Origin: Chloroflexota bacterium
GTDB lineage: Bacteria; Chloroflexota; Anaerolineae; DTLA01
Direction: 5' to 3'
Length of the DNA stretch: 64,000 nt
Assembly (NCBI GenBank): GCA_014874485.1
Contig: JADBJK010000024.1
Coordinates: 124,001-188,000, forward strand
Made by a program: the position numbers and the translations under genes. The number at the start of each line of letters is the position of its first letter. The stretch's first letter is position 1. Below the pieces are notes generated by a model. It was not told the DNA's origin. It saw only the letters and a program-made list of their open reading frames with translations, and did no database searches. Positions 8,146 through 33,484 of this stretch are shown in pieces.

Positions 8146-8161
8146 GAGCGTGCTGCCGCGA

Positions 8162-8189: not shown

Positions 8190-8227
8190 GGCGTCTGGAG
8201 CACGCTATCAAAAGCGGGAGGATTGCG

Positions 8228-8872: not shown

Positions 8873-8893
8873 CACCTGACCACGGAGAAGATG

Positions 8894-9495: not shown

Positions 9496-9547
9496 TGCGA
9501 CTCGCTCCACGAGGACCGGTTTTACATCATACCACGGAGGCAACACG

Positions 9548-10135
9548 CTGACAAGCGAACACGCTCCCGCAACGGAAAACAGCACACGCAACCTGCCTGC
9601 GCTGGTGGAGAGCCTGCTATTTGTGGCCGACCGCCCAACGCCGCTGGAAGTGCTCGCACAGGTCCTGGAAACAAGCCTGGAGGCCGTAGAGGAAGCCCTG
9701 AAGGCCCTGGACGGCCAACTGGCCGAGCGCGGCCTGCGACTTCAGCGCAAGGGCACGCAGGTTCAACTGGTTACCATGCCCGAGGCGGCCCCGTACATCC
9801 AGCGGTTTTTGGGCCTGGAACTGAGCGGAAGGCTCACGCAGCCCGCGCTGGAAACCCTGGCCATCATCGCCTACCGCCAGCCCATCACGCGGGCCGCGCT
9901 AGAAGCCATTCGCGGCGTCAACTGCGACGGTGTCCTGCGAACGCTGGTGTCCAGGGGGCTGGTGGAGGAAGTGGGCAGGCTGGAACAGGTCGGCAGGCCG
10001 ATTCTCTATGGCACGACCTTTGAATTCCTCCAGTACTTCGGCCTGAAATCGCTTGACGACCTGCCGCCCCTTGACCTGCCCGAGGCAAGCCCCGAGGAGG
10101 CCCAGGGCAGCGATACCCCGACAGACGCGCCTTGA
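9548..10135 (+). CDS. scpB: Segregation and condensation protein B, apparent CTG start
   Basis: ScpB is the winged-helix partner of ScpA and Smc in the bacterial condensin complex. The product has the tandem winged-helix signature ALVESLLFVADRPTP, the GRLTQPALETLAIIAYRQPITRA block, and RGLVEEVGRLEQVGRP-LYGTT. The reading frame has no ATG or GTG close to the expected N-terminus. The best start is CTG at 9548, seven bases after a perfect GGAGG (9536-9540), giving 195 residues. The only upstream ATG (9401) would run antisense through the lipoprotein gene. scpA is not in the window, so the usual scpA-scpB pair is split. Confidence 0.9.
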   Translation: MTSEHAPATENSTRNLPALVESLLFVADRPTPLEVLAQVLETSLEAVEEALKALDGQLAERGLRLQRKGTQVQLVTMPEAAPYIQRFLGLELSGRLTQPALETLAIIAYRQPITRAALEAIRGVNCDGVLRTLVSRGLVEEVGRLEQVGRPILYGTTFEFLQYFGLKSLDDLPPLDLPEASPEEAQGSDTPTDAP

Positions 10136-10145
10136 GGCAGCCTTG

Positions 10146-10183
10146 CCGGAGGGGGACGCCCATGACGGCATATCCCCCTCCGG
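10146..10183. terminator. Terminator between convergent scpB and MMPL genes
   Basis: Perfect 11-bp inverted repeat CCGGAGGGGGA (10146-10156) / TCCCCCTCCGG (10173-10183) with a 16-base loop. It lies between the two stop codons and could act in either direction. Confidence 0.7.
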
Positions 10184-10194
10184 GCAACGGGCCT

Positions 10195-13100
10195 CTACCG
10201 TTTGGAAGGCCACCAGTTGCGTTCCCGCAGCAAGCGCGCGATCCCCGGCACCAGGATACCGCGAATCACAAATGTGTCCAGGAGCACGCCGAAGGCGACG
10301 CTGGCGCCGACCTGGAACAGCATCGTCATCGGCGAGAGCATCATCGTGGCGAACGTGCCCGCCAGCACGATGCCGCACGACGTGATGATCGCGCCGGTCC
10401 GCGACGTGGCTGCCACCAGGCCTTCCACGAACTCAGCGGATGCGGTCTCCTCGCGCACGCGGGACATGAGGAAGATGTTGTAGTCGGCCCCAAGCGCCAC
10501 GAGGAGCACCAGCACAATGGTGGGGATCAGCAGGTTCACCCCCTCCTGCCCCATGAGCATCTGGAACACGAATACGGTCAGGCCCAGCGTGGATCCGTAA
10601 CTCAACAGCACGGTCAGCACCAGGTAGGTCGGCGCCACGACTGAACGCAGCAGCGCGATCATGACCACGAACACGCCGATGGCGATCAGCACCAGCACCT
10701 TGATGAAGTCTTCGTTGGAGACCTGCCGAATGTCGGCAAAGGCGACTGAACTACCTGTTATGTAAACTTCGCTCCCCGTGCCCTCCACGGCCTGGCCGAC
10801 CGCCTTGCGGACTCTCTGGCTGAGATCCAGCGCTGCGTTGGAATACGGCTCCGGCTCCAGGATGACATACAGCCGCGTCGCCGTCCTATCCTCGGACACG
10901 AAGGCCTTCTCCAGGGCCTGGGCCGCAGGAATCGCTGCGAACAGGGCCTTCGGGTACAGATACGCCTTCTTGCCCTCAAATCCGCGCCGCAGTGCATCCA
11001 GGTTGGACGCCAGCGACTTCACGGTGGCCGCAAGCGCCGTTACGTCTTCCCCAGCCGCGCCGGACAGCCCCGCGGCCACATACCGTGCGTCGGGCGCTTT
11101 GGCCTCAAATGCCCCACGGAGTTCCAGCAGCGACAGCCCGAACTCCTCCACCTTGCCTGCCAGATCCGCCGGGCGCATCAGGCCACCGGGCAAATTCTTC
11201 GGCACGAAACTGGCCTTCGGGTCGCGCGACGCGAAGGAGCCCGCGAGCGTCCGCATCGCTTCGGCCATGCCCGTTACCTCGGCCTTGAGCGCTGACAGGG
11301 CGGCCGGCAAGTCGCTCAGGGCAACCTGTCCGCCCTTCAGTTTGGCCGCAGCCTGCGCCATCTGGGCGAGATGCTCCCCTGCTGCCGCGAAGGCGGGCTC
11401 GCCCACAACCCAAGGATACCGCTCGGCCAACTCGCCCATGTAACTCTGGAGCGCCGTCAACTGAGACGCGGTGTCCACCTGCATTAGCGAAGCCGGGTTG
11501 TCCAACTGCTTGGCAAGCGCGTCCAGGCTGTCCGCGATGATGCCCAACTGCCCGGACACCAGCAGCCCCCTTTGCGCCTGCGCCCACGCAGCGGAAATCT
11601 CGTCCAGGGCCGCCAGCGCCTTCGCATAACTCGCCTCGCCCTTGACGAACGGGTATGCATCGCCCAGCCCGGCCAGATACTGCTTGAGCGTCTGCAGCGT
11701 GCTCGCGTACTGGGCGAGCGACTCGGGCGCCGCCGTCAGCATAGGGCTGCGCAACCCCGTCGCGAGCATCCCCACCTGCTCCGCGATGGTCTCCAGTTGG
11801 CCGGTTACCCGCATCTTCTGCTCCAAGCGGGCGAGTTGATTCTGCAGGGCTTTGGCGCTCGCCACCGCATCGGTGTACGCGGGCTGGGCTTTCACGTCGG
11901 GATAGGTTTCCCCGAGTTGCTGCAAATAGGCATTCATGGCAGCGACAAGCGTAGCCGGGTCAGCGCCGCCCGCACCGGAGCCCTGCCCGCCGGCAAACGC
12001 AGTGGCAGCGTTGCGCAGTCCGTCGGCCAGCAGCGTCAACTGCGCGTCCACCGTGAACGGCACCGCCTGGCCGGTCTCGCCCGTCGGTGTCAGCAGGCTC
12101 CGGACCCGCAACACACCCGGTATCTTCTGCACCTCCTGCACCACGGCATCCAGCGTCGCCAACTCGTCTGTTACGTCTCCATCCTTCGCCAAGAGCATCA
12201 CGTGCGTTGGGAAAATCTCCCCGGGGTCAAAGTGCCCTTTCAGCGTCTCAAACCCCTTTGCCGAATCCAGGTCCTTCGGCACGTCGGCCAGGATGTCAAA
12301 ACTGCGGACCATCTTCGGCAGCGCCGCGTAGGGCACGAGCAGGCACACGATCACGAGCGGGACAACCCATGCCGCATTCCGGCTCACGTTGTGCGCCAAG
12401 CCGTGCCAGAACCCGCGCTCGGGGTGTTCCGCCTCGTTGGCGAAGGGCCAGAACAGCCGCGTGCCCATCACCGAGAGCAGCGCAGGCGTCAGGGTCAGCC
12501 CCGCGAGGAGCGTGATGAAAATGCACACGGCGAGGCCCGTCCCCAGCGTGCGGGACATGCCGAAACTCGCCACGTTCAGGAACAGGAACGCCAGGATAAC
12601 CACCGTCGCGCTGGCCGCGATGACCGCGCCGATCTTCTCCATGGTCCGCACGCCGGCCTCAAAGCGCGTGCCCTGCCGATGGAGTTCCTCGCGGAAACGG
12701 GACACGATGAACAGGCAGTAGTCCGTGCCCACGCCGAAGATGACGACGACCGCGAATATGTCCATCTGCGTGCTCATCTTGACTCCGGCCTGGGCCAGAA
12801 AACCCAGCACCCCCGTGGAAACGAGGTAGGCCGCGCCGATGGTCGCCAGCGGCACCAGCGCCGCTACAGGCGAGCGGTAGATCACCAGCAGGATGATCAC
12901 CACCAGCGCGATGGTCGCCCAGGTCGTTCGGTCAAGGCTGCGCTTCACCGTCTCCAGCGTGTCGCGGGCCACCGACGCCGAGCCGGCCGTGTACACCTCC
13001 AGCCCCGCCGGCTTGCCCTTCAGGTACGCGCGAATCCGATCCACCGCCTCGTGGGTCGGCGCTGCGGAGACCGCCGTGGTAAACTCCACGGTCATCAGCA

Positions 13101-13485
13101 TCGCCGTGCCGTCGGCGCTCTTGAGCATCGGCTCCAGTTCCGGGTTGGAGAAAACCGAAATCACCCTGAACACTTCGCTCGGCGCGTTCGGCGACTGCAG
13201 CCACTGCTCCACCTCGCGCGCGTATGCCATATCCCCATCCGTGAGGCCGCTGGAGCGGAAGAATACGATGGTGTCGCCGATGGCCGAATCCTTCGGGAAC
13301 TTCTCGGCAATCAACTTCCCGGCCTTCACCGAGGGCGCGCCCGATGGGAGAAAAGACTCCTGGTCCGTGATGCCGACTTTCTCAAGCGGCGGCGCGAAGG
13401 CCACCATCAGGACTGCCAACACCACCCAGGCCAGGATGACCACCCACCGCTTCTGAAAGGAGAACGCTGCCAACTTTCGGTACAT
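10195..13485 (-). CDS. MMPL/RND-superfamily exporter
   Basis: 1096 residues with the duplicated MMPL layout. One transmembrane helix lies near the N-terminus, followed by a porter domain and five helices (about 185-345) with GVGTDYCLF and ASFGMSRTLGTGLA. A very long Ala-rich extracytoplasmic loop (about 410-860, probably helical) leads to a second set of helices holding ALGADYNIFLMSRVREE, the Asp-Tyr pair that relays protons in MmpL3-like pumps. It exports lipids or hydrophobic compounds driven by the proton gradient; the substrate is not evident. The start has GGGAGGTGGGAAG. The tetR gene ends 16 bases upstream on the same strand, so the pair forms a regulator-exporter operon. Confidence 0.9.
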   Translation of the reverse strand: MYRKLAAFSFQKRWVVILAWVVLAVLMVAFAPPLEKVGITDQESFLPSGAPSVKAGKLIAEKFPKDSAIGDTIVFFRSSGLTDGDMAYAREVEQWLQSPNAPSEVFRVISVFSNPELEPMLKSADGTAMLMTVEFTTAVSAAPTHEAVDRIRAYLKGKPAGLEVYTAGSASVARDTLETVKRSLDRTTWATIALVVIILLVIYRSPVAALVPLATIGAAYLVSTGVLGFLAQAGVKMSTQMDIFAVVVIFGVGTDYCLFIVSRFREELHRQGTRFEAGVRTMEKIGAVIAASATVVILAFLFLNVASFGMSRTLGTGLAVCIFITLLAGLTLTPALLSVMGTRLFWPFANEAEHPERGFWHGLAHNVSRNAAWVVPLVIVCLLVPYAALPKMVRSFDILADVPKDLDSAKGFETLKGHFDPGEIFPTHVMLLAKDGDVTDELATLDAVVQEVQKIPGVLRVRSLLTPTGETGQAVPFTVDAQLTLLADGLRNAATAFAGGQGSGAGGADPATLVAAMNAYLQQLGETYPDVKAQPAYTDAVASAKALQNQLARLEQKMRVTGQLETIAEQVGMLATGLRSPMLTAAPESLAQYASTLQTLKQYLAGLGDAYPFVKGEASYAKALAALDEISAAWAQAQRGLLVSGQLGIIADSLDALAKQLDNPASLMQVDTASQLTALQSYMGELAERYPWVVGEPAFAAAGEHLAQMAQAAAKLKGGQVALSDLPAALSALKAEVTGMAEAMRTLAGSFASRDPKASFVPKNLPGGLMRPADLAGKVEEFGLSLLELRGAFEAKAPDARYVAAGLSGAAGEDVTALAATVKSLASNLDALRRGFEGKKAYLYPKALFAAIPAAQALEKAFVSEDRTATRLYVILEPEPYSNAALDLSQRVRKAVGQAVEGTGSEVYITGSSVAFADIRQVSNEDFIKVLVLIAIGVFVVMIALLRSVVAPTYLVLTVLLSYGSTLGLTVFVFQMLMGQEGVNLLIPTIVLVLLVALGADYNIFLMSRVREETASAEFVEGLVAATSRTGAIITSCGIVLAGTFATMMLSPMTMLFQVGASVAFGVLLDTFVIRGILVPGIARLLRERNWWPSKR

Positions 13486-13501
13486 CTTCCCACCTCCCTT
13501 G

Positions 13502-14080
13502 TTATCGCGGGATGAGCCCGTTCAAGGCCATGTCCACTGTGTGTGCGATGTCCTCCTCCCCTATCGGGAGATCAGGCCGCAGCAACGTACGGGTTACGAA
13601 GACGTTCATCATGCCGGCCAAGGACAGCGCGGCCCGCATGGCGTCCACCGGCCGGAATTCCCCTTTTGCGATGCCTTCCTGAATCAGGGCGATAAACGGT
13701 CGTAGCACATCCTCGCTGCGCTTGCTGGCGACGCCGGGCAACTCGCTCTCAATCGCACCGATGTCGCGCAGGAGCAACTGGATGAGCGAGAGGCGGTGCT
13801 GAAGGGCCTCCAGGTAACACCGCACAAGCCGAGACAGGCGCTCGGCTGCCGTGCCCGGGCCGGAGCCGGCCTCATCCAAGGCGAGCACCAGCCGCTCCAG
13901 TTCGCGGTCCACCACTTCCAGGTACAGGTGCTTCTTGTCGCGGAAGTAGTGATAGATGGCGGGCTTGGTGATGCCACACGCGGCGGCAATCTCGCGCATG
14001 GAGATAGACCGGTACCCATGCGCAGCGAAGAGTTCGCCGGCCTTTTGGAGGATGCGTACCTTCGTACTCTCCATCGCCAC
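13502..14080 (-). CDS. TetR-family transcriptional repressor of the MMPL exporter
   Basis: 192 residues. The N-terminal helix-turn-helix is typical of TetR: RILQKAGELFAAHGYRSISMREIAAACGITKPAIYHYFRDKKHLY (residues about 8-52; key residues G22, T38, Y43). The C-terminal helical domain binds the inducer and is not conserved enough to name a ligand. It is cotranscribed with the exporter, and a palindromic operator lies just inside the transcript at 14098-14111. This predicts autorepression and relief when a substrate of the pump is present. Confidence 0.92.
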   Translation of the reverse strand: MAMESTKVRILQKAGELFAAHGYRSISMREIAAACGITKPAIYHYFRDKKHLYLEVVDRELERLVLALDEAGSGPGTAAERLSRLVRCYLEALQHRLSLIQLLLRDIGAIESELPGVASKRSEDVLRPFIALIQEGIAKGEFRPVDAMRAALSLAGMMNVFVTRTLLRPDLPIGEEDIAHTVDMALNGLIPR

Positions 14081-14097
14081 CTTGTGCTCCCTGGCGT

Positions 14098-14111
14098 TTA
14101 CCGACCGGTAA
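14098..14111. promoter_or_regulatory. Probable TetR operator
   Basis: TTACCG-AC-CGGTAA, a perfect 6-bp inverted repeat with a 2-bp centre, within TTTACCGACCGGTAAGTAAG. It lies between the promoter (-10 at 14125-14130) and the tetR start (14080), the usual position for TetR autorepression. Confidence 0.7.
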
Positions 14112-14124
14112 GTAAGGCCCCCAT

Positions 14125-14153
14125 ATTCTAGCCCGACGGCCCGCAGCCGTCAA
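14125..14153 (-). promoter_or_regulatory. Promoter of the tetR-MMPL operon
   Basis: Minus-strand TTGACG (14153-14148), 17-base spacer, TAGAAT (14130-14125). Transcription would begin near 14118, so the palindrome at 14098-14111 sits at about +7 to +20. Confidence 0.7.
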
Positions 14154-14168
14154 ATCGGCACTCACCGC

Positions 14169-14434
14169 GGGGTGCATTTCAGTCTGGGGGCAAGGCTGCT
14201 GCAATGGGCACGTCGGAGCAGGGCGTGAGCCGCTCCCCACCAACGAAATCCTCTTTCGCTGCCCGACTTACAGCGAAGGGCTGCTTGACCTCACCTAACC
14301 CCTCCCACACCCTCCCCTTTCCTCTCCGCGGGCGGAGAGGAAAGGGGAGGGCCGGGGTGGGGATAGGTGAGGTAGGTTCTGCGCGACAACCTAATGACAT
14401 TCGGTCGTTTTCGCCCCAAAATGGAAATGCGCCC
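14169..14434. repeat. Palindromic intergenic element, copy A
   Basis: Non-coding element whose other copy is at 44131-44327. The ends are imperfect inverted repeats (GTGCATTTCAGTCTGG at 14172; CCCCAAAATGGAAATGC at the right end). The core, 14289-14372, is an 84-bp palindrome with perfect 20-bp arms around CCGCGGGCGG and imperfect outer arms ending CCTCACCTA / TAGGTGAGG. Copy A carries about 65 bases between GGCTGCTGCA and GCTGCTTGACC that copy B lacks. No coding capacity. MITE-like in form, but no target duplication is evident. Confidence 0.8.
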
Positions 14435-22532: not shown

Positions 22533-22952
22533 CTACTCCTCCACGATGCGGAAGGACGTCGTGATCTTCGCCACCTTGTTCATCATCGCCGCCGCCGAGC
22601 AGTACTTCTCCTCCGAAAGCGCGATGGCCTGTTCCACGGCCTTCTCGGACACACCCCTGCCGTACACGACGTACTCCACGTGGATGTCGGTGTACACGTT
22701 GGGCGGCTCCTCGCGCTGCTCGCCGTGCACGTTCACCTCCACGCCGTGGAACGGCTGGCGCTTCTTGCCGAGGATGTTGACCACATCCATGGCCGTGCAC
22801 CCTGCCAGCCCCACGAGGAGGAGTTCCATGGGGCTTGGGCCGGTGTTTCGGCCTCCGGGCGCGGGCGCGTCCAGCACAATGGCGTGGCCCGAACCCGTCT
22901 CGCCGACGAATTGCATCTCGCTTACCCAACGAACTTTCGCCTGCTTTGCCAT
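22533..22952 (-). CDS. OsmC-family protein
   Basis: 139 residues. Fold marks: VRWVSEMQFVGETGSGHAIVLD, GPSPMELLLVGLAGCTAMDV with the conserved Cys, and a second conserved Cys in EKYCSAAAMM. The two cysteines are the peroxidatic/resolving pair in OsmC/Ohr enzymes that reduce organic hydroperoxides. The YhfA-like subgroup is not functionally defined. It lies between mobA and the oxidoreductase with spacings of 12 and 16 bases, so it belongs to the Mo operon, possibly protecting the cofactor or enzyme from oxidants. Confidence 0.9.
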   Translation of the reverse strand: MAKQAKVRWVSEMQFVGETGSGHAIVLDAPAPGGRNTGPSPMELLLVGLAGCTAMDVVNILGKKRQPFHGVEVNVHGEQREEPPNVYTDIHVEYVVYGRGVSEKAVEQAIALSEEKYCSAAAMMNKVAKITTSFRIVEE

Positions 22953-22964
22953 GATGGTCTCCCT

Positions 22965-23570
22965 CTACGCTTGTGTTTTCTGCGCCTCAAGGATGGCCTG
23001 CATCCGAGCCAAATCCTCGGGTACATTGAGATTGAAGAACGAATGCAAGTTGGGGTCAAGAATCCGGATTTCATCTTCGCGGACATCGCGGACGCGCACC
23101 TGCGCCAGGAACGAGATAATTCGCCGCTCGCCCGCGTCCAGGGCAGCCTTGATGGCGGGCGCACACGCCTTGCCGTACACCGCGTGCAGAGGCTCTGGCT
23201 CGCCGCGCACATAGGGCATGACCACGTCGTACCCGGGCGCGAGGAGAACCATATAGCGGATGAGGTTCAAGTCCAGGAACGGCATGTCGCAGGCCGCGCA
23301 GAACACATAGGGATGGCGGCAAGCCTCCACCGCCGTGTACACGCCACCCAGCGCGCCCGCACCCTGCACCCGGTCTTCAACCAAACGCGCCCGCACGCCC
23401 TCAAAGCGCCCCAGGTTGTTGCCCACGATGAGCACGTCATTGGATATCTTGCTCAGGCGGTCCACAACGCGCTGAATGAGCATCTGGCCGTCCACTTGTA
23501 ACAGCGCCTTGTCCTTGCCGAAGCGAGAACTGGTCCCGCCGGCAAGCACGGCGCACGATACCTCTCGCAT
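22965..23570 (-). CDS. mobA: Molybdenum cofactor guanylyltransferase MobA
   Basis: 201 residues from ATG 23570 (GAGGTGGAT upstream). The N-terminal nucleotide-binding motif AVLAGGTSSRFGKDKALL is diagnostic. FCAACDMPFLDLNLI carries the metal-binding Asp, and PEPLHAVYGKAC is the substrate loop. Transfers GMP from GTP to the cofactor. First gene of the minus-strand Mo operon; the divergent THEP1 gene starts 113 bases away. Confidence 0.93.
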   Translation of the reverse strand: MREVSCAVLAGGTSSRFGKDKALLQVDGQMLIQRVVDRLSKISNDVLIVGNNLGRFEGVRARLVEDRVQGAGALGGVYTAVEACRHPYVFCAACDMPFLDLNLIRYMVLLAPGYDVVMPYVRGEPEPLHAVYGKACAPAIKAALDAGERRIISFLAQVRVRDVREDEIRILDPNLHSFFNLNVPEDLARMQAILEAQKTQA

Positions 23571-23610
23571 ATCCACCTCGTCGGCCTTGACAACATCGGT
23601 GAGCACAGGC

Positions 23611-23639
23611 AGTATACTTTAGGCGCGAATGACGCGCAA
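23611..23639 (-). promoter_or_regulatory. Likely promoter of the Mo operon
   Basis: Minus-strand TTGCGC (23639-23634), 17-base spacer, TATACT (23616-23611). The -10 region is the palindrome AGTATACT. A plus-strand TTGACA at 23587 could pair with it only with a 20-base spacer, so the minus assignment is better. Confidence 0.45.
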
Positions 23640-23682
23640 ACCGCGCCGTCGCGCACAGACAGCAAACCTCAGGGAGAGACAA

Positions 23683-24231
23683 ATGGGGGAACTCGTCCTG
23701 CTCACTGGCTTGCCCGGCTCGGGCAAGACCACCGTCATTGAGCGCACGCTAGAACTCCTGGCAGACCTAAAGCCGGGCGGGTTCATCACGCGGGAAATTC
23801 GCGGCCCCGCGGGTCAGCGCCTGGGGTTTGAAATCCGCACCCTGGACGGGGAGAGCGCCGTCCTGGCCCATGTCCGCATACAGTCGCCCCACTGCGTCGG
23901 CAAGTACGGCGTGGACATCCGCGCCCTGGAACAGACCGGCGTGGCCGCGATTCGCCGCGCCGTTCAGGATGCGGACTTTGTGGTCGTGGACGAAATCGGA
24001 AAGATGGAACTCCTGTCGCCCGCGTTCCGCGAAGCCATCCACGCCGCCATCCGCTCGCCCAAGCCTGTGCTGGCCACCATCATGCTGAGAAGCCACCCCT
24101 TCGCCGACGTGCTGAAACAGATGCCCGGCGCCGAAATGAGACTCGTTACGCCCCAATCCCGCGACGCGCTTCCGGCGTGGGCCGCCGAGCACATTCGCCG
24201 CGCCCTATCCGCAGAGGATACCCCACGCTAA
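23683..24231 (+). CDS. Nucleoside-triphosphatase THEP1 family
   Basis: 182 residues from ATG 23683 (GGGAGAGACAA upstream). P-loop LLTGLPGSGKTTVI (about 6-19) and Walker B VVVDEIGKMELLS (about 100-112), the DEIGKME box being specific to THEP1 (Aquifex/Thermotoga type and human NTPCR). The segment GGFITREIR...GFEIRTLDG is also conserved. Hydrolyses ATP, GTP and other NTPs; its biological role is unsettled. Divergent from mobA, convergent with the sulfite-oxidase-fold gene. Confidence 0.92.
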   Translation: MGELVLLTGLPGSGKTTVIERTLELLADLKPGGFITREIRGPAGQRLGFEIRTLDGESAVLAHVRIQSPHCVGKYGVDIRALEQTGVAAIRRAVQDADFVVVDEIGKMELLSPAFREAIHAAIRSPKPVLATIMLRSHPFADVLKQMPGAEMRLVTPQSRDALPAWAAEHIRRALSAEDTPR

Positions 24232-24250
24232 CCCACGACAGGTGGCATCC

Positions 24251-24814
24251 TCAGGCGTACCGCTCCTCCTTCCACGGGTCGGCGCTGTTGTTGTACCCGT
24301 ACTGCTCCCAGAAGCCCAGCCGATCCTGGGCCATGAACTCCACGCCGCGCACCCACTTCGCGCTCTTCCAAAAGTAGCGCTTGGGTACCACCGCCCGCAG
24401 CGGGAATCCGTGCTCCGGCGTCAGCGGCTTGTCGTCGTACTTCCACGCCAGGAGCACGTCATCGTCCATGACCACATCCAGCGGCAGGTTCGCCGTGAAC
24501 CCGTACTCGCAGTGGAACATGACGTACCGGGCCTCCGGCTTGGGAACCACCAGCGCCGCCAGGTCGCGGAACAAGACGCCTTCCCACACGGTGTCCAGTT
24601 TGCTCCAGCCGGTAACGCAGTGAATGTCGGCCACGATGCGTGTGGTGGGCAGCGCCGTGAATTCCTCATAGCGGAAGACCCGCTCGTGCTCCACCAGACC
24701 GAACACGCGCAGCGTCCACGTGGCAGGGTCAAAGCGCGGCACCTGCCCGTAGTGCAGCACGGGGAACCGGTCGGTCAGCCTCTGTCCAGGTGGTACGCGG
24801 TTTTGCGTCGGCAT
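24251..24814 (-). CDS. Cytoplasmic sulfite-oxidase-fold molybdopterin protein
   Basis: 187 residues. ATG 24814 is preferred because GGAGG lies five bases upstream; the ATG at 24826 contains that box. The sulfite oxidase Mo-binding fold is shown by [33 protein letters not shown] (Cys 66, the Mo ligand), [37 protein letters not shown] and WEQYGYNN. No signal peptide or dimerisation domain is present, unlike MsrP/YedY, so the protein should be cytoplasmic. Substrate unknown. Lies in the Mo-cofactor neighbourhood and is preceded by the cyclase gene 20 bases upstream. Confidence 0.87.
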
Positions 24815-24834
24815 AGACACCTCCAAAGGGGTGA

Positions 24835-25467
24835 TTATCTATCTTCTGCAACGAGCACGGCACGGGCCGGCGCGCCGTCGCTGCCCAGTACCTTCAGCGG
24901 CAGGCAGTACAGACTGTACCACCCGCTGCTCACCTCCGACAGGTTGAGCCCTTCCAGCACGACCACGCCTGCGGCCAGCAAGACTTCGTGGGTGGAGCCA
25001 TCGCCTGTGAACGCCTCCACCGACAGGTAGTCCACCCCCACCAAGCGGATGCCCCGCTCCACAACCCAGCGGGCCGCGTCCGGCGTCAGATGGGCGAAGT
25101 CGGGGAAGAACTCAGGCCGATCCCACAGCGCAGAATTGGGCGTCTTCAGCAGGAGCCGCTCTGTGCCCGTGGGCACGCCGACCCGCGCGAGGTCGTGCGC
25201 GGTGATCGGGCCGGCCGTCTCCACCTGCGCCACCCACGCCGGCCCGATGAGCGCATCCAACGAGAGAGTATCCACGCCCGCTGCGCCCGCGATGAAGTGG
25301 CACGGGGCATCCACATGCGTCCCCGTGTGCAGGCCCAGGTGCGCAGCCGACACGTTAGCGCGGCTGCCGTCCGCCTGGCTGCGAACCGTCTCCACGACCA
25401 CGTCCGCATCACCGGGCCACACGACCATGCCCGAACGGATCGGCACGGACACGTCATAGATTCGCAC
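24835..25467 (-). CDS. Cyclase-family (kynurenine formamidase-like) metal hydrolase
   Basis: 210 residues from a GTG at 25467 with GGAGG six bases upstream. The metal site HxGTHVDAPxH is visible as [12 protein letters not shown] (about residues 47-58). [17 protein letters not shown] at the N-terminus and [11 protein letters not shown]...[19 protein letters not shown] are typical of the cyclase/arylformamidase fold. Members hydrolyse N-formylkynurenine, isatin and other amides; the substrate is not fixed by sequence. Its start lies 14 bases inside the end of the upstream GAF gene, so the two are coupled. Confidence 0.88.
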
Positions 25468-25939
25468 GGGAGCCCTCCTTGGCGCACCCCGGCTTCGCCA
25501 GGATGGCCACCAACAGGTGCGCGACTTCTTCCAACTGCTCGCGGTCGGACTCGTCAAACGCCGCCTCATCGTCGCTGTCTATGTCAATCTCGCCGTACAC
25601 GCAGTCGCCGTCCAGAATCGGCACGACGATTTCCGAGCGCGTCTCCAGGCTGCACGCGATGTAGCGCGGATCCTGGCGCACATCGGGCACGTTGACCGTC
25701 TCCTTGGTGCGTGCAGCCAGCCCGCAGATTCCCTCGCCGATGGGGATGCGCGTGTGAATCGTGGGCTTGCCGCGGTAGGGGCCGAGCACCAGCACATCGC
25801 CGACCAGCAGGTAGATGCCCACCCAGTGGTACTTGGGATTGGCAGCGTGCAGCGCGGCCACGACCTCATCCAGAATCCGGTCGCGGTTCCAGCCCTCGCG
25901 AATCCCTCGGTAGATGGCCTCTATAGCAGACTTGTTCAT
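25454..25939 (-). CDS. GAF-domain free methionine-(R)-sulfoxide reductase-like protein
   Basis: 161 residues, one GAF domain. The fRMsr cysteines are placed as in the enzyme: GEGICG (C72), RYIAC (C96) and a third at C113, with SEIVVPI and GEIDIDSD. The family reduces free L-methionine-(R)-sulfoxide with thioredoxin. The C-terminus adds a short Cys-containing tail. Overlaps the cyclase by 14 bases and has its own promoter (25975-26003). Confidence 0.8.
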   Translation of the reverse strand: MNKSAIEAIYRGIREGWNRDRILDEVVAALHAANPKYHWVGIYLLVGDVLVLGPYRGKPTIHTRIPIGEGICGLAARTKETVNVPDVRQDPRYIACSLETRSEIVVPILDGDCVYGEIDIDSDDEAAFDESDREQLEEVAHLLVAILAKPGCAKEGSRANL

Positions 25940-26018: not shown

Positions 26019-26052
26019 AACGTGCGGCCCCCCATTCGGAAGGCCGCACGTT
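26019..26052 (-). terminator. Rho-independent terminator of the DsrE2-TusA-DsrMK operon
   Basis: 11-bp perfect stem AACGTGCGGCC (26019-26029) / GGCCGCACGTT (26042-26052) with a 12-base loop. On the minus strand the stem is followed by TTTTTG, a proper U tract. It starts 21 bases after the dsrK-like stop. Confidence 0.9.
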
Positions 26053-26072
26053 CGGATGCCAGCGTCGCCAGG

Positions 26073-27362
26073 CTACTTCTTACCGTTATTGGGCACGATG
26101 GCGTTGGCGACCAACTCGGCCATGCCCATGACACGCACGTTCAGGCCGTAGTGCTCGTTGATCTCGCCCAACTGGTGTCGGCAGTTGTCGCACGAGGCGA
26201 CCACCGCCTCGGCACCGGTCGCGCGGATTTGGTCCGCTTTGGGTTTGCCTGCCTCCAGGCGGATGTCCTGCCATTCGGGGATGGCCACCAGGCCGCCCCC
26301 GCCGCCGCAACAGTAGTTGCGCTCGCGGTTCGGCGTCATCTCCCGGAAGTCCTCCACGCAGGCCGCCAGGATGCGCCGCGGCTCGTCAAACAGGCCGCTG
26401 TTGCGCCCCAGGTTGCACGAATCGTGGTAGGTAACCGAGAAGGGGTTGCGCGACTTATCCACCTGGATGCGCCCCGTCTGGATGTACTCGTCCATCACTT
26501 CCAGGATGCTGCGCACGCGGAAGTTCCACGGCTGATCCTTGAACCACTTGGGCGCTTCCCACCGCGACACGGCGTAGGCGTGGCCGCACTCGGTGATGAT
26601 GATTTCCTGAACCTTCAGCCGTTCGGCTTCGCGGATGATGCGTTCGGTGATGCGCTTGGAGCGCACCGGATCGTTCAGGAAGATGCCGTAGTTGGCAGCC
26701 TCAAACATGCTCAGCGTCCAGGACTCGCCCGCGTGGTAGAAAATCTCGGCCGCGGGCATGATGGTGTGCGCACCCGAAAGCGGCACGTACAGGAAGCGCG
26801 CCCCTTCCACCCCAACGGGAATCCGCGCCTCGGGGTCGCCCACTTTCTTCTGCAACTCCGCTTCCAGTTCCTTGATCTGCTCCAGGTAAAAGTCCTTGAA
26901 GAACTCCAGGTTCTCCTCGCGCGCGATGGCCGCATCCGCGAGTTGCACCAGGATTTCCGGAGCCTTGCCGACGGCGGTGAGGACTCCCCGCGCCGTCGCA
27001 AGGACCAGCGGCGTGTCCACGCCCAGCGGGCAGTTCACCACGCACCGCTGGCACATGGAGCAGTTGCGGAAGGCGGCTTCCACCCACTTGTCCAGGTCTT
27101 CCTCGGTCAGTTCCTTCGCCCCGGTCCACCACGGGAAGATGCGGCGCAGCCAGTCGTGCTCGCCCTTGACCACACGGCGGACCTGCTCGGCCTTGGCCAC
27201 CGGGCTGATGTTGGGATCGCGCGTCGCCACGAAGTAGTGGCACTGATCCACGCACAGCCCACAGTGCACGCACAGATTAGAGGCCGCCACGGCCAGGGTG
27301 CGGCTGAATCGCTTCTCCAGTTCTTCCTTCGCCTGTTCAACGACAGTCTTCTGCTCTTCCAT
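26073..27362 (-). CDS. DsrK/HdrD-like Fe-S protein with CCG domain
   Basis: 429 residues, cytoplasmic. Two 4Fe-4S motifs lie near the N-terminus: C31-V-H-C34-G-L-C37-V-D-Q-C41 and C101-S-M-C104-Q-R-C107-V-V-N-C111-P. The C-terminal half holds one full CCG motif (YHDSCNLGR, then NYCCGGGG, then SCDNCRHQ), which binds the noncubane 4Fe-4S cluster used to cleave disulfides in HdrB/HdrD and DsrK. A single complete CCG motif and adjacent NarI-like membrane subunit match the DsrK/HmeD arrangement. Starts 4 bases after the dsrM-like stop. Expected role: thiol-disulfide or sulfur-carrier trisulfide redox chemistry coupled to membrane quinone. The disulfide substrate is unknown. Confidence 0.88.
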   Translation of the reverse strand: MEEQKTVVEQAKEELEKRFSRTLAVAASNLCVHCGLCVDQCHYFVATRDPNISPVAKAEQVRRVVKGEHDWLRRIFPWWTGAKELTEEDLDKWVEAAFRNCSMCQRCVVNCPLGVDTPLVLATARGVLTAVGKAPEILVQLADAAIAREENLEFFKDFYLEQIKELEAELQKKVGDPEARIPVGVEGARFLYVPLSGAHTIMPAAEIFYHAGESWTLSMFEAANYGIFLNDPVRSKRITERIIREAERLKVQEIIITECGHAYAVSRWEAPKWFKDQPWNFRVRSILEVMDEYIQTGRIQVDKSRNPFSVTYHDSCNLGRNSGLFDEPRRILAACVEDFREMTPNRERNYCCGGGGGLVAIPEWQDIRLEAGKPKADQIRATGAEAVVASCDNCRHQLGEINEHYGLNVRVMGMAELVANAIVPNNGKK

Positions 27363-27365
27363 GGG

Positions 27366-28013
27366 TTACGCCCTCTTCCCTGCAATGATGCCGCGTCGCC
27401 CGTAGCGCAGGCCGAAGAACACGCGCGCGAAGAACCAGTACACGTAGTGAGAAATCTTGCTGAACGGCACGTAGAACAGGAAGGCCGCCGTGATGAGGAA
27501 GTAGGCGATCATCCAGCCCCTGGCTTCCGTAATCAGCGCCATCGCCGTGAAGAAGAAGAACACCTCCACCGCAGCGAGCGAGAAGTAGTCGTCCGGCGTG
27601 CTCACGACCCGCAGTTCGGGAGCGATGATGCGCCGCGCCAGTTTGATGGCGCCCACGATGAACCCACCGATGACAAGCGCCGCCATGGTCAGGCTCACGG
27701 GCCGGGTCATGATGGCAGGCCAGAACGGGATGGTGAACGTGCCCAGGATCGCAGCGCCGGCCCCCAGGTGGTACAGCGCGAACTCCACCCACCGCCCCAG
27801 GTGTTGCGTCGTGCTGCTCATGGACCAGGGGAAGAACAGCCAGGCGAAGGAGTACACCACGCCCAGTTCCTCGCTCCCCCGCCGAGGCCCCATCTCCCTC
27901 GGCCAGGGCAGTTTCATCAACTGGTACACCTTCAGCGCGTACAGCAGCGCGAACACCGAAAGGGCGATGATCTGCAAGTCAAACTTCACGAACTCAAGAA
28001 ACCGGTCCTCCAT
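27366..28013 (-). CDS. DsrM/HdrE-like (NarI-fold) membrane cytochrome subunit
   Basis: 215 residues with five or six hydrophobic helices. Histidines placed within or next to helices (TTQHLGRWVEFALYHLGAGAA and SKISHYVYWFF) are candidate heme b ligands, as in NarI, DsrM and HdrE. The family passes electrons between menaquinone and the Fe-S partner. It lies between tusA (12-base gap) and the dsrK-like gene (3-base gap), and this pairing is the basis of the call, because sequence conservation in the family is low. Confidence 0.8.
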   Translation of the reverse strand: MEDRFLEFVKFDLQIIALSVFALLYALKVYQLMKLPWPREMGPRRGSEELGVVYSFAWLFFPWSMSSTTQHLGRWVEFALYHLGAGAAILGTFTIPFWPAIMTRPVSLTMAALVIGGFIVGAIKLARRIIAPELRVVSTPDDYFSLAAVEVFFFFTAMALITEARGWMIAYFLITAAFLFYVPFSKISHYVYWFFARVFFGLRYGRRGIIAGKRA

Positions 28014-28025
28014 GTACGCCCCTCG

Positions 28026-28268
28026 CTACTTGAGCCGCTTGACCCAGAAACGGATGACCTTCCCTTCTTTCTCCACCTTGAGCATCTCGTTGCCGGTGCT
28101 CTTGGCCCAGGCGGGGATGTCCGCCATGACGCCGGGATCCGTCGCCGTGGCCTCAATGACACCGCCCACGGGCACGTTCTTGATGGCCTGGCTGATTTTG
28201 ACCACGGGCAGCGGGCACATCAGCCCCTGCAGATTCAGTTCCAAATCGGCCTTGATCGTTTCAGACAT
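28026..28268 (-). CDS. tusA: TusA-family sulfur carrier protein
   Basis: 80 residues from ATG 28268 (AAGGAGACACTCC upstream). The sulfur-relay CPxP motif is C18-P-L-P in LNLQGLMCPLPVVKISQAI; Cys18 would carry a persulfide. VGGVIEATATDPGVMADIPAWAKSTGNE is the second conserved block. TusA relays sulfur to DsrE-type proteins or to cofactor and tRNA thiolation. Here the next upstream gene is dsrE2, 25 bases away, and the next downstream genes are the DsrMK-like pair. Confidence 0.93.
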   Translation of the reverse strand: MSETIKADLELNLQGLMCPLPVVKISQAIKNVPVGGVIEATATDPGVMADIPAWAKSTGNEMLKVEKEGKVIRFWVKRLK

Positions 28269-28293
28269 TGGAGTGTCTCCTTCCTTGTGAGAT

Positions 28294-28773
28294 TTAGATA
28301 AACAGGTTGATCTGTGAATCGCCAGCCTCGCCGATGAACGCCGCGACCCCCACGACATCTGCGACTTCGTCAATGAGATCTTCGCGCGAAATCTCCATGA
28401 CATCCATGCTCATCTGGCAGGCCAGCAGTTTGACGCCCAGGTCAATGGCGGTCTGGCGCAACTGAGCAAGCGGGGTTACGCCCTTGTCGCTCATCATCTT
28501 CTTGAACATCCAGCGCCCGATGCCGCCGAAGTTGAAGCGCGACGGGCCGATGCGGTCAATGCCGCCGCGGTTCATAATGCCCAGCATCTTGCCGAAGAAC
28601 CCCTTGCCGGTGCGGTTGCCCTTCTGGATGGCCTTGAGGCCCCAGAAGGTGAAGAACATCGTGGTCTCGTAGCCCATGGCCGCCGCGCCGGTGGCGATGA
28701 TGAACGCCGCCATCACCTTGTCCATGTCGCCGCTGAAGACAACCATTGACGCCTTCTTCTTTTCCTCGCTCAT
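28294..28773 (-). CDS. DsrE2-like sulfurtransferase
   Basis: 159 residues, DsrE/DsrF/YchN superfamily in the DsrE2/peroxiredoxin-like branch (DUF1641-type neighbours absent). MVVFSGDMDKVMAAFIIATGAAAMGYETTMFFTFWGL is the N-terminal Rossmann-like half. GVKLLACQMSMDVM contains the conserved Cys119, which takes up persulfide sulfur. The internal amphipathic helix region (FFTFWGLKAI, RWMFKKMM) may contact the membrane. Good ribosome-binding site GGAGGAGG. DsrE2 and TusA are known partners in sulfur oxidisers. Confidence 0.88.
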   Translation of the reverse strand: MSEEKKKASMVVFSGDMDKVMAAFIIATGAAAMGYETTMFFTFWGLKAIQKGNRTGKGFFGKMLGIMNRGGIDRIGPSRFNFGGIGRWMFKKMMSDKGVTPLAQLRQTAIDLGVKLLACQMSMDVMEISREDLIDEVADVVGVAAFIGEAGDSQINLFI

Positions 28774-28805
28774 TGGAATCCTCCTCCTGTTGTGAATTGT
28801 GTGGA

Positions 28806-29561
28806 CTAAACCCGGGTCATTTCCGCTATGCGCTCCAAGCGGCCCAGCAGCGCGAGCCGCTCATCGCCGATTTCGGCCAGCGTAACCGACATTCGCTGAA
28901 CCAGGCGGGCCACCCGCGAGACCTCCGAGGGGCCCAGTGCCCGCACGGCGGCCCGACGCGCCATGAGGTCCTCCGCATCCAGGCCCAGTGCTGCGGCCAG
29001 GGGGCGCACGTCTGGGATTCCGCCCTCGCCCGCGCCGTTCGCCTCGGCGAACTGGCAGGCCGAGAAGACCGCCACGGGACTCCCGCCCGCTCGCACCAGA
29101 ACGCTGACGCAGCGCAGGCCGGCATGGCATGGCCGCACCACGGGTGAGGAAGCACCGGCACCCGCCCGCCAGGTCTCCGCGCAGCGTCTGCGCCCTTCCG
29201 CGGTGGATAGAACGGCATCGCAAAACGCGCACGGGTGGCTGGCGCGCGTTAGGGGATTGCCGGCAAGGTCGGTGGTTACCGCTGCGATGTCCAGGGCTTC
29301 CGCGAAGACATCCTGCACATTCTGGACACACCGAAGAGGCAGGGGCACGGATTCAGCGGGGGCGGGAGCGGCCGTTTCATCCGCCAGCGCGAGGGCGTCG
29401 CGCTGGGCTTCCAGCCACTCCTCAATTTCGCGGCGGGAGAACCGCCACTGGCCGCCCACCTTGAACCCGGGCAGGCGGCCCTGTTCCAGCATGCGGTAGA
29501 TGGTGATGCGATCCACCTTGAGGAGATTCTGAAGTTCGCGCGTTGTCAGCAGTTCGCTCAC
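28806..29561 (-). CDS. Excisionase-type HTH regulator with PocR sensory domain
   Basis: 251 residues from GTG 29561. N-terminal MerR/excisionase-like winged helix (LLTTRELQNLLKVDRITIYRMLEQGRLPGFKVGGQWRFSRREIEEWL, about residues 5-52) fused to a PocR domain (about 80-190). The PocR part shows SHPCAFCDAVLSTAEGRRRC...PCHAGLRCVSVLV: four Cys and a His spaced as in PocR-type sensors that bind a small molecule or metal/Fe-S. Such proteins often control neighbouring metabolic genes. It is the first gene of the sulfur operon, ending 32 bases before dsrE2, so it probably senses a sulfur or redox signal and regulates its own operon. Confidence 0.85.
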   Translation of the reverse strand: MSELLTTRELQNLLKVDRITIYRMLEQGRLPGFKVGGQWRFSRREIEEWLEAQRDALALADETAAPAPAESVPLPLRCVQNVQDVFAEALDIAAVTTDLAGNPLTRASHPCAFCDAVLSTAEGRRRCAETWRAGAGASSPVVRPCHAGLRCVSVLVRAGGSPVAVFSACQFAEANGAGEGGIPDVRPLAAALGLDAEDLMARRAAVRALGPSEVSRVARLVQRMSVTLAEIGDERLALLGRLERIAEMTRV

Positions 29562-29608
29562 AGTCAGCCCTGACCCGATTCCGGTATGCTCGTTCGCCCA
29601 GCGTGTGC

Positions 29609-29637
29609 ATTCTAGCACAAAGGCGCAGGGTTGTCAA
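29609..29637 (-). promoter_or_regulatory. Promoter of the PocR-DsrE2-TusA-DsrMK operon
   Basis: Minus-strand TTGACA (29637-29632), 17-base spacer, TAGAAT (29614-29609). The leader is about 41 bases. The sequence GGTCAGGGCTGAC lies just upstream of the start codon (29574-29562), and a similar CAGGGCTGACCC occurs at 29687-29698 beyond the promoter. The two may be half of an operator pair. The region upstream of the -35 is AT-rich, unlike its surroundings. Confidence 0.75.
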
Positions 29638-31035: not shown

Positions 31036-31233
31036 TTGTCATTGCGAGCGAAGCGAAGCAATCTCGTTTGGCGGGATTCTTCGCGGCTTCGCCGCTCAGA
31101 ATGACAGTTCGCGGTGTCATTGCGAGCGAAGCGAAGCATCTCGGTTGACGAGATTCTTCGGCGCTTCGCGCCTCAGTAGGGACAATTCATGAATTGTCCC
31201 TACGGGCTTCGGGCGCTCCGCGCCCTCGCAATG
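31036..31233. repeat. Dispersed palindromic repeat, two adjoining units
   Basis: Two units each beginning GTCATTGCGAGCGAAGCGAAGC. The second (from about 31117) is essentially the reverse complement of the 14478-14600 element and holds the same perfect 28-bp palindrome at 31176-31203. The 466-base gap between the lysine-dehydrogenase-like gene and the next gene holds only this repeat and short flanks. Confidence 0.8.
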
Positions 31234-31333
31234 ACGCACCTTCAAGGTGGCAGAATAGCAGTGCGACGCAGGCGCTCTGCGCGCCGTCTGAATCGGGCAG
31301 CCGACCCGACCATCCTCGGCTAGGGAGAGAACC

Positions 31334-33484
31334 ATGTACCGCGACAACCGAAAAATGGGCCTGGACGTGAATCGCCCCATCAATCCGGTTACAGGGGACC
31401 TCTCGCCAACGGTCTCCGACTCGCGCCTGCCCGCGTGGGTCGGAGCCAAGTGGGTGCGCGTGAACTTCATCCTCGGCCCCTGGTCATCCCCGACCGACTC
31501 CACAAAGTACGCCGGGCGCACCTGGCTGGAGACCTACGACCACATCGTGGACCGTTACCTCGCCCAGGGCCTGCGCATCTATGCCCTCATCGGCGCGGAA
31601 GCGGTGCGCAACCCCGCCGCCGACGCCAATGCTTTCCGCAGCGCCGCGCCCAGCAGCGCCGCCGAATCCTGGCTGGACGAGTACGTTACCAACTTCGGCC
31701 TCATCGCCGAGCATTTCCGAGGCCGCATCTACGTCTACGAGTCCTTCAACGAGCCCAACGACTGGCACCGAGTGCCCGGCGGGCCTGCCTGGACCCAGGC
31801 GTGGATTCACCCCTACTGGTTCGCCCGCATGCTGCAGGAAATCTACGACGAGGTCAAGGTGCGCCGTGGTCTTGACGTTACGCTGGTGTCCGGCCCCCTC
31901 CTCACCCACGACGCCGACACGGGCGCTCAGTACCTGGCCGACACCTACACCCAGGGCATCAACGCCTTGCAGTGGGAACTCCTACGCCTCAATCACGGCC
32001 GCTACCCGCTGGACGGCATCGGGTTCCATCTTTATGTCAAGCAAGATTGCCAGGCAACGCCCGATTCCATCCGCGCGTCCGTGGCCACGCGCGTGCAAAC
32101 CCTGTGGGACACGGCCTTCGCCTTTGAGGGCGAGGTGCTGGAGGAGAAGGGCCTGTACATCTCCGAAATGGGATGGCAGTCGCTCTCCTGCGGCCAGGAG
32201 TTCCAGGCGGCCAGCCTTCGCGCCGCGTACGAAACCCTGATTCCCGACTGGCGAGTCCGGGCCGCCATCTGGTTCTGCCTCCAGGACTTCGGCCCGGATA
32301 ACACCTGGGGCCTCTACAACGCCGGCGACCTCAACACGGAAAACCGGAAGAAGGCATACGACGCGTACAAAGACCTCGCCTCCAGCAAAGCGCCGCAGGT
32401 CCTCACGTTTGAGATTCCGTCGGTGCAGCAGGTTCTGGCGGCCCAGGGCGTCCCACAGTCCGAACTGCCATCCCTCCTGTCGCTGGTGCAGGAGCAGATC
32501 GGCCCGCCTGACCAACTCGTGCCGGGCAAGTACCAGATCACCTTCAAGCCGCCGCTCAAGTACACGAATCAGCAGATCATCAACGCGTTCTGGAAGGCGG
32601 GCAACAAATCGTGGACCCTGCTCATCAAGGCGGGGCTGAACCTCAACGACCTCGTTGCAGACCGCGATGGCCCGTACACCGGCCCGGCCATAGACAAACT
32701 GCCCAACCTGACCGACGCGGAGAAACGTCTGGTCAAGGCGGCGCTCCCAACCGAACCCACCCCCGCCGAACTGGAACTGTGGGGCAAGGGGATGTACATC
32801 TGGCAGGTGGATCAATGCGACGGCGGCGACACCGAGCGCATCGTGAACCGCGCTCTGGACGTGGGGCTGGACTTCGTGCTCATCAAGATCGCCGATGGCA
32901 CCAACCCGTACAACGGCGACATCACCGCCCTGGTCAACCGCCTGCGCGAGGTGGGGGTCGCCGTGTGGGGCTGGCAGTACACCTACGGCGACAAGCCCGA
33001 GGACGAGGCCCGGTACGCTGCCCAGCGGCTGCAGAAATTCGGCCTGGCCGGGTTCGTCATAGATGCGGAGACGGAATACGAGGGCAAGCCCGACCGCGCC
33101 ACCCGCTACGCGCGCACCCTGCGGGGGCTGTTGCCCGGGGTCCCCATCGCCCTGAGTTCCTTCTACTGGCCGGAAATGCATCCCACCTTCCCGTGGCGCG
33201 AGTTTCTCGTCCACTGCGACCTGAACATGCCCCAGGTGTACTGGTACAAGAAGGACCCCGTGGAGGCGCTCCGCATCAGCCTGACGCAGCACATTCGCTT
33301 CGGGCGGCCGCTGCTGCCCGTGGGCGCGTGCTACGAGATGGTGCCGGGCAAGCGCCCCACCCAGCAGGACCTGTCGCGCTTCCTAGCCGAGGTGGAGACT
33401 CGCGGCCTGCTGGGGGCGTGCTTCTGGTCCTGGCAGCACACGGACGAGGATCAGTGGGAAGCCATCAAAGACTATCCCTGGTAG
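31334..33484 (+). CDS. Large protein with two TIM-barrel-like halves (clan GH-A-like plus second barrel)
   Basis: 716 residues, GGGAGAGAACC before the ATG. The N-terminal half (about 1-350) looks like a clan GH-A glycosidase: the acid/base Glu sits in YESFNEPND (about residue 140) and the nucleophile in LYISEMGW (about residue 278). Residues about 355-470 are a linker domain. From GMYIWQVDQCDGGD (about 490) a second domain follows with VGLDFVLIKIADG, VWGWQYTYGD, FVIDAETEYEG and FWSWQHTDEDQW, like GH25/DUF1906-type barrels. No signal peptide or membrane helix is visible, odd for a glycosidase. It may be cytoplasmic, leave by lysis, or use a non-classical route. The crp-like gene follows after 7 bases. 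Confidence 0.7.
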   Translation: MYRDNRKMGLDVNRPINPVTGDLSPTVSDSRLPAWVGAKWVRVNFILGPWSSPTDSTKYAGRTWLETYDHIVDRYLAQGLRIYALIGAEAVRNPAADANAFRSAAPSSAAESWLDEYVTNFGLIAEHFRGRIYVYESFNEPNDWHRVPGGPAWTQAWIHPYWFARMLQEIYDEVKVRRGLDVTLVSGPLLTHDADTGAQYLADTYTQGINALQWELLRLNHGRYPLDGIGFHLYVKQDCQATPDSIRASVATRVQTLWDTAFAFEGEVLEEKGLYISEMGWQSLSCGQEFQAASLRAAYETLIPDWRVRAAIWFCLQDFGPDNTWGLYNAGDLNTENRKKAYDAYKDLASSKAPQVLTFEIPSVQQVLAAQGVPQSELPSLLSLVQEQIGPPDQLVPGKYQITFKPPLKYTNQQIINAFWKAGNKSWTLLIKAGLNLNDLVADRDGPYTGPAIDKLPNLTDAEKRLVKAALPTEPTPAELELWGKGMYIWQVDQCDGGDTERIVNRALDVGLDFVLIKIADGTNPYNGDITALVNRLREVGVAVWGWQYTYGDKPEDEARYAAQRLQKFGLAGFVIDAETEYEGKPDRATRYARTLRGLLPGVPIALSSFYWPEMHPTFPWREFLVHCDLNMPQVYWYKKDPVEALRISLTQHIRFGRPLLPVGACYEMVPGKRPTQQDLSRFLAEVETRGLLGACFWSWQHTDEDQWEAIKDYPW

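Follow-up and report, generated by a model that had tools for sequence, protein, structure and literature searches.

An uncultured Chloroflexota bacterium of the Anaerolineae type carries five neighbouring genes that encode, in order, a PocR-type regulator, DsrE2, TusA, a membrane protein of predicted NarI fold (M) and a DsrK-like Fe-S protein (K). These genes reside in a 64,000-nucleotide stretch of DNA, which is called the window here, and their coordinates are collected in Table 1. The complete transcription unit proposed in a preliminary description of this DNA is confirmed, with all five genes and their control signals present, after small corrections to gene starts. The promoter is near-consensus, and three promoter-like sites of such quality were seen compared with 0.6 expected. 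The terminator is strong (RNA -36.5 kcal/mol, z -4.7) and unique within the window, where none is expected; it was overlooked by an automatic terminator scan because of its loop length. The regulator reading frame had been listed from position 29618, but this GTG falls within the promoter; translation more probably begins at the GTG at 29561. Similarly, the 125-amino-acid reading frame listed from position 28403 for TusA is over-extended, and translation is assigned to the ATG at 28268. The operon carries no dedicated sulfur importer and no rhodanese gene. The genome has one two-domain rhodanese gene elsewhere.

Table 1. Genes and control signals of the operon, with window coordinates.
Feature	Coordinates	Strand	Basis
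Sigma-70-type promoter, TTGACA-17-TAGAAT, extended -10 TG	29609..29637	-	11/12 matches
Transcription regulator, HTH_17 (excisionase-like) DNA-binding domain and PocR sensory domain	28806..29561	-	Pfam
DsrE2-family sulfurtransferase, Cys119	28294..28773	-	PF13686, 173 bits
TusA sulfur carrier, CPLP, Cys18	28026..28268	-	PF01206, 75.9 bits
M, short NarI-fold membrane subunit (M1 type), one heme-ligand pair, H82 and H189	27366..28013	-	Predicted fold
K, DsrK/HdrD-like Fe-S protein, two 4Fe-4S motifs and one CCG domain	26073..27362	-	Motifs, profiles, structure
Intrinsic terminator	26021..26050	-	Perfect 9-bp inverted repeat, then TTTTTG

The two sulfur-transfer proteins are as originally described. 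DsrE2 belongs to the Pfam DrsE_2 family and carries Cys119, and its closest solved structure is the putative sulfurtransferase DsrE (3pnx); its score with the NCBIfam equivalog NF047629 (88 bits) is below the cut-off of 210. TusA exceeds the PF01206 cut-off and has the cysteine of the CPxP motif, here CPLP.

Assignment of M relies on its predicted structure. Its sequence has no Pfam match and yields no match in a profile search against PDB sequences, and its closest NCBIfam models are HmcE and TmcC rather than DsrM. The structure prediction (pLDDT 88.9) finds NarI chains as its best Foldseek matches (E 1.4e-3; VIA Z 11.2-11.6), and the N-terminal part of EtfD also aligns (Z 10.7, rmsd 3.1). 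For a helical bundle, a Z of 11.6 is only moderate, yet NarI ranks first, and the NarI fold proposed earlier is confirmed at the level of a predicted model. The same cannot be said of the NarI/DsrM heme-ligand set. DsrM and NarI use four histidines for two b hemes, of which M1-type proteins keep two (present in 57 of 57 M sequences), whereas M2-type relatives retain all four. Having lost one heme-ligand pair, M1 may function unlike DsrM.

Domain searches established that K has the two 4Fe-4S motifs and single complete CCG domain that characterize DsrK, as had been claimed. The CCG domain cysteines are C316, C351, C352, C391 and C394, and C259 is an additional conserved cysteine. However, K scores 273 bits with the DsrK model NF045796, short of the curated cut-off of 400. 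Together with the shortness of M and its one heme-ligand pair, this makes the original label of a 'DsrM/DsrK pair' too strong. The solved structures closest to the K prediction are EtfD (9ojn) and HdrB.

When the grouping of K was checked, the K proteins formed one clade (SH-aLRT 98) apart from DsrC-linked DsrK, from Isp2 of [NiFe] hydrogenases and from other M-K pairs. Trees joining either M1-type or M2-type K alone to DsrK were rejected (p-AU 0.022 and 0.0375, respectively, for groups labelled post hoc, with the tree already known). The three K groups have 46 conserved residues in common, among them C259 in the ECGHA motif, and six CCG-domain residues are common to K and Isp2 but absent from DsrK. 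Residues 192-205 of K (Y192, G197, H199, P203) are constant within the clade and different in both DsrK and Isp2, and this segment is therefore a predicted docking site for TusA/DsrE2.

The last four genes are a conserved module across several phyla. DsrE2, TusA, M and K occur at 58 loci in the same order, on the same strand and with tight spacing (median gaps of 29, 7 and 0 bp), in Chloroflexota, Actinomycetota, Elusimicrobiota and one MAG labelled Deltaproteobacteria. Every predicted sulfur-transfer and Fe-S-ligand cysteine is conserved across the module, with C119 of DsrE2 and C18 of TusA each kept in all 58 operons. Distance matrices for the four proteins correlate within both groups (r 0.54-0.95), with none of 500 permutations as high, and this co-evolution signal partly reflects common ancestry. 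Cultured relatives include Thermoflexus and the Anaerosomatales. Anaerosoma is able to reduce S0, unlike Parvivirga (PMC9686372).

Regulation is the exception to this conservation. The regulator described here exceeds the Pfam cut-offs for both PF12728 (HTH_17, 61.8 bits) and PF10114 (PocR, 88 bits versus 23.9), but it is not a member of the PocR diol regulator equivalog NF047788 (24 bits, cut-off 500), and part of its PocR Cys/His set is usual for the family. An ArsR-type repressor is found in 53 of the 58 operons and a PocR type in only three. The proposal that the system has its own PocR sensor is thus not upheld, and PocR is rejected as a general, defining feature of the module. Cysteine is present in 36 of 38 aligned ArsR-type regulators, and Cys-bearing regulators of this type resemble persulfide-responsive repressors. 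PocR regulators also recur upstream of TusA-DsrE-hydrogenase clusters.

The absence of dsrAB and dsrC noted for the locus extends to the entire 95.7%-complete genome of the window, in which neither PF04358 nor PF01077 was found. Among operon genomes, DsrC exceeds its cut-off in three of 37 and is absent from 34, and a sulfite-reductase-fold (NIR_SIR) protein is present in four of 36 and absent from 32. None of the 58 operons is adjacent to dsrABC. Likewise, no sHdr genes were seen within the operon or among conserved neighbours, as judged from labels by reading rather than by HMM; HdrA-like neighbours occur at DsrE2 loci that lack an M-K pair of this type. The near-absence of DsrC and sulfite reductase, combined with the separate K clade, indicates that the module is neither a fragment of the Dsr pathway nor a curated DsrMK. 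These findings support the earlier suggestion of a minimal membrane-linked TusA/DsrE2-M-K system without DsrC.

Several known systems resemble this module in part. The DsrMK core of DsrMK(JOP), the DsrC-trisulfide reductase, likewise pairs a NarI-fold subunit with an Fe-S protein of two 4Fe-4S motifs and one CCG domain, but here TusA and DsrE2 replace DsrC/DsrAB as partner genes. Isp1/Isp2 of HydSL (group 1e type) [NiFe] hydrogenases are also a NarI-like and HdrD-like pair, whereas no hydrogenase is encoded in the operon. A NiFe-hydrogenase-family match was obtained in every genome tested, and such matches include complex-I-like relatives. The YTD cluster shares TusA and a DsrE-family protein, but was rejected as an assignment given that the operon lacks YeeE/YedE; the operon also has a single DsrE2 rather than the DsrEFH type II arrangement. 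The YeeE-type gene of the window's genome sits elsewhere, in a SelD cluster, and YeeE/YedE, present in 18 of 30 genomes, showed no clear association.

Clues to the direction of the chemistry come from the same class. There, fusion proteins combine the same TusA and DsrE2 domains with a rhodanese and an FAD pyridine-nucleotide-disulfide reductase, an architecture proposed as an S0 reductase in Pelobacter (PMC3543383). In these Pcar_0429-type fusions (pyridine-nucleotide-disulfide reductase/rhodanese/TusA/DsrE), TusA and then DsrE2 likewise deliver sulfur to a reductase, although theirs is an NAD(P)H/FAD enzyme and ours would be a quinone-linked membrane pair. Also in this class, PocR-TusA-DsrE-DsrE2-DsrE-GcvH-like genes lie upstream of hydS-isp1-isp2-hydL, and H2-dependent S0 reduction is the only major cellular role known for the Isp hydrogenase (PMC10892978). 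The six CCG-domain residues that K has in common with Isp2 are a further point on this side. This context favours reduction, a direction that the preliminary description had left open, without proving it.

We hypothesize that the module is a putative DsrC-independent, quinone-linked sulfane-sulfur (persulfide) reductase, to which we assign a probability of roughly 0.55. Judging from family chemistry and the conserved cysteines, Cys18 of TusA would be loaded with sulfane sulfur, whether its source is polysulfide, thiosulfate or thiol persulfides, and would exchange it with Cys119 of DsrE2. The carrier persulfide would then dock on K. By comparison with DsrMK, HdrD and EtfD, menaquinol would be oxidised at M, whose b-heme site would hand the electrons to the two 4Fe-4S clusters of K; the CCG-domain cluster would receive them last, cleaving the persulfide and releasing H2S. 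A CydB (quinol oxidase) gene in the window's genome implies a quinone pool. The PocR-type regulator is proposed to gate transcription in this operon, a task that would mostly fall to an ArsR-type regulator in the others. The module occurs in Thermoflexus species, of which T. hugenholtzii is described as a heterotroph lacking any complete sulfur-metabolism module (PMC8129789), and this counts against the persulfide reductase reading. The lack of a dedicated sulfur importer and of a rhodanese gene in the operon, and the missing heme-ligand pair of M1, also weigh against it.

DsrMK-like pairs operate in either direction depending on the organism, and DsrMK runs oxidatively in sulfur oxidisers. 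The same module might oxidise TusA/DsrE2 persulfides (possibly with a second thiol) at K and pass electrons to menaquinone, comparable with DsrMK/sHdr in those organisms. This seems unlikely to us: sulfur oxidisers are the organisms in which TusA and DsrE2 are best known (PMC10892978) and the window's genome has a cytochrome bd oxidase gene, but most genomes lack DsrAB, DsrC and sulfite reductase, leaving no known route for oxidised sulfur, and the relay fusions and neighbours in the class indicate reductases and H2-linked S0 reduction. Equally doubtful is a role in cytoplasmic redox homeostasis or detoxification, in which menaquinol serves to remove toxic sulfane sulfur or protein disulfides rather than to support respiration. 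Widespread ArsR-type control by Cys-bearing regulators and carriers that include heterotrophs without known sulfur respiration are consistent with this role, which is compatible with reductive chemistry and differs from persulfide reduction in purpose only; membrane coupling would be costly if detoxification were the sole purpose.

An EtfD-like role for M-K, in which electrons move between menaquinone and a soluble donor (ETF, for example) and the TusA/DsrE2 linkage is incidental, is very improbable. In its favour, M and K both match mycobacterial EtfD (9ojn), one of the nearest solved structures, in predicted fold. Against it, the operon has no ETF gene, and K homologues outside the 58 operons also repeatedly adjoin TusA/DsrE genes. 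Moreover, the same genome separately encodes a NarI-HdrD pair that has two CCG domains and adjoins genes for an acyl-CoA dehydrogenase and for ETF. EtfD/HdrDE-type proteins resemble M and K in fold, but EtfD is a fusion tied to ETF whereas M and K are two proteins linked to TusA/DsrE2, with one CCG domain.

The DsrE2-TusA-M-K order was not found described in the open-access PMC literature searched. Excerpts of Neukirchen et al. (PMC10504309) report basal Chloroflexi DsrM from organisms without DsrAB and do not name the operon. We give about even odds that Chloroflexota, Actinomycetota and other phyla harbour a widespread but overlooked quinol:persulfide oxidoreductase, respiratory or protective in function, formed by a separate branch of the DsrMK superfamily that takes persulfidated TusA/DsrE2 instead of DsrC as the substrate carrier. 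If the persulfide reductase reading is true, DsrMK-type chemistry would be separable from DsrC and sulfite reductase, and a compact sulfur-reducing module would be present in many genomes now classed as lacking dissimilatory sulfur metabolism. This module could bear on the origin of DsrMK, given the basal Chloroflexi DsrM in those excerpts, and would then also allow sulfane-sulfur cycling to be traced among uncultured Chloroflexota and Coriobacteriia, with the module as the marker.

The operon in the window is a compact unit of five minus-strand genes (26073-29561), with a promoter (11/12 matches) on one side and a terminator (perfect stem) on the other. In Pfam and NCBIfam searches, four of the genes are assigned to an HTH_17/PocR regulator, a DrsE_2-family protein (DsrE2), TusA, and a DsrK/HdrD-like Fe-S protein (K) whose model is closest to EtfD among known structures and to HdrB among reductases. 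Downstream of the terminator (22533-25939) lie genes for a GAF protein resembling free-methionine-sulfoxide reductase, a cyclase, a sulfite-oxidase-type molybdoprotein, and MobA-like and OsmC-like proteins. Translations of the type 'SLRAKRSNL...ALRALAMT' recur at 31117-31521 and at L185:9092-9661 (another locus of this genome), pointing to an interspersed repeat family.

To collect related loci, GTDB genomes were scanned with DsrE2 and a class-level search was run with K. Among the many loci returned, DsrE2, TusA, the membrane subunit (M) and K are consecutive on one strand in 58 distinct loci, with median intergenic gaps of 29, 7 and 0 bp, respectively. Carriers, assigned by record title or taxonomy, belong to Chloroflexota (Anaerolineae, Dehalococcoidia, Thermoflexia, Limnocylindria), Actinomycetota (Coriobacteriia, Actinomycetes) and Elusimicrobiota (one carrier), and include one MAG titled Deltaproteobacteria that taxonomy lookup places in Myxococcota. 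The module is scattered rather than universal, since a sampled phylum search with a threshold of 1e-110 matched the K profile in 15 of 350 genomes. No variation is seen across these loci at Cys119 of DsrE2, Cys18 of TusA, Cys259 of K, or His82 and His189 of M; the Fe-S cysteines of K are likewise constant except in three rows lacking C-terminal parts. The distances within DsrE2, TusA, M and K are strongly correlated with one another, partly through common descent. An ArsR-type gene lies directly upstream in 53/58 operons, with one Cys common to 36 of 38 aligned ArsR rows; the PocR type occupies this position in 3/58.

M yields no Pfam matches, and NarI is the top structural match to its confidently predicted structure (pLDDT 88.9). 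About half of the operons encode a longer form (M2) with four His residues spaced as expected for both heme-ligand pairs of NarI. The window type (M1) keeps only the pair that corresponds, by alignment, to NarI H56/H205. M1 is therefore predicted to hold one heme, and it has gained a conserved His71. Both types occur within the window's genus: two genomes carry M1-type operons (G000, the window's own, and G002), and a third (G001) has an M2-branch K at a contig edge.

We consider it probable (about 0.85) that these genes constitute a DsrC-independent sulfur-relay/quinone redox module. Of 37 operon genomes, 3 encode a DsrC that scores above its cut-off (the search covered 40, three of them, with loci L080, L083 and L145, having no M-K pair), and PF01077 was found in 4/36, two of which have a true dsrAB-dsrC-dsrMK locus elsewhere. 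Single absences are weak because most genomes are MAGs; the aggregate absence is not. In an unrooted 82-protein K tree, drawn by midpoint and containing long branches, operon K proteins group as a single clade (SH-aLRT 98) that excludes both DsrC-linked DsrK (SH-aLRT 100) and a further group holding all Isp2. Forcing M1-type or M2-type K alone to join DsrK was rejected (p-AU 0.022 and 0.0375, respectively). At L165:8828-9698, a DsrC-like gene directly precedes a DsrE2-like gene, in a genome with no PF01077 matches.

Other sulfur-relay and redox loci, with a candidate selenoprotein gene
Feature	Position	Strand	Basis
PocR-TusA-DsrE-DsrE2-DsrE-GcvH-like protein-HydS-Isp1-Isp2-HydL-LplA cluster	L170:3321-12962		HMM-confirmed
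Clusters of the same composition	L166, L169, L178, L179, L180		similarity and reading
Pyridine-nucleotide-disulfide reductase/rhodanese/TusA/DsrE2 fusions, 836-848 aa, same class	L202:2107-4617, L203:3194-5740		
NarI-like, two-CCG HdrD-like, GcvH-like and lipoate ligase genes; acyl-CoA dehydrogenase and ETF gene adjoin	L187 (G000:C22), 7771-14297		
Cysteine desulfurase-NifU-TusA-DsrE2-like cluster, window's genome	L183 (G000:C56), 7300-9966		
YeeE/YedE-TusA-cysteine desulfurase-like-SelD-like cluster	L185 (G000:C120), 4598-8611		
[NiFe] hydrogenase large subunit, two in-frame TGA at N-terminal CxxC (I*GV*TTVH)	G000:C93:38373-39911 = L198:8374-9912	minus	

The L170-type clusters combine an Isp-type [NiFe] hydrogenase with genes for a sulfur relay and for a protein that may bind lipoate. 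PocR regulators recur upstream of such clusters with their Cys/His positions largely kept, which suggests a sulfur-linked signal common to these regulators and that of the operon, with no particular ligand implied. The L187 genes may encode a lipoate- or ETF-linked quinone complex, and the SelD-like cluster, which has a CydB gene nearby, probably serves selenium metabolism. The hydrogenase with two TGA codons is a candidate double-selenocysteine (UxxU) enzyme; matches with two TGA also occur in G002, G009, G010, G216, G311 and G314. Another DsrE2-redox pairing is seen in Aminicenantes, Krumholzibacteria and others, where DsrE2 adjoins HdrA-like, MvhD-like and HdrC/NarI-fusion genes, labelled by reading (L077, L080, L081, L093, L101-L103, L133, L140, L145).

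We lean slightly toward a reductive direction on three indirect grounds of context: because some proteins of this class fuse TusA-DsrE2 domains to a rhodanese and an FAD disulfide reductase (precedent in PMC3543383), because TusA-DsrE clusters run into hydS-isp1-isp2-hydL, genes of a hydrogenase for which H2-dependent S0 reduction is the one major cellular role known (PMC10892978), and because a sulfite-forming enzyme is absent. With cofactors in their predicted sites, quinol would donate electrons, sulfur would pass between DsrE2 and TusA, docking would take place on K, and H2S would be the product.

No account of the DsrE2-TusA-M-K combination was found in the open-access papers searched, which does not prove that none exists. 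The component families are already known, and their conserved combination is a new variant. A role in detoxification or redox balancing is plausible, because Thermoflexus, a heterotrophic isolate group without known sulfur respiration, has the module.
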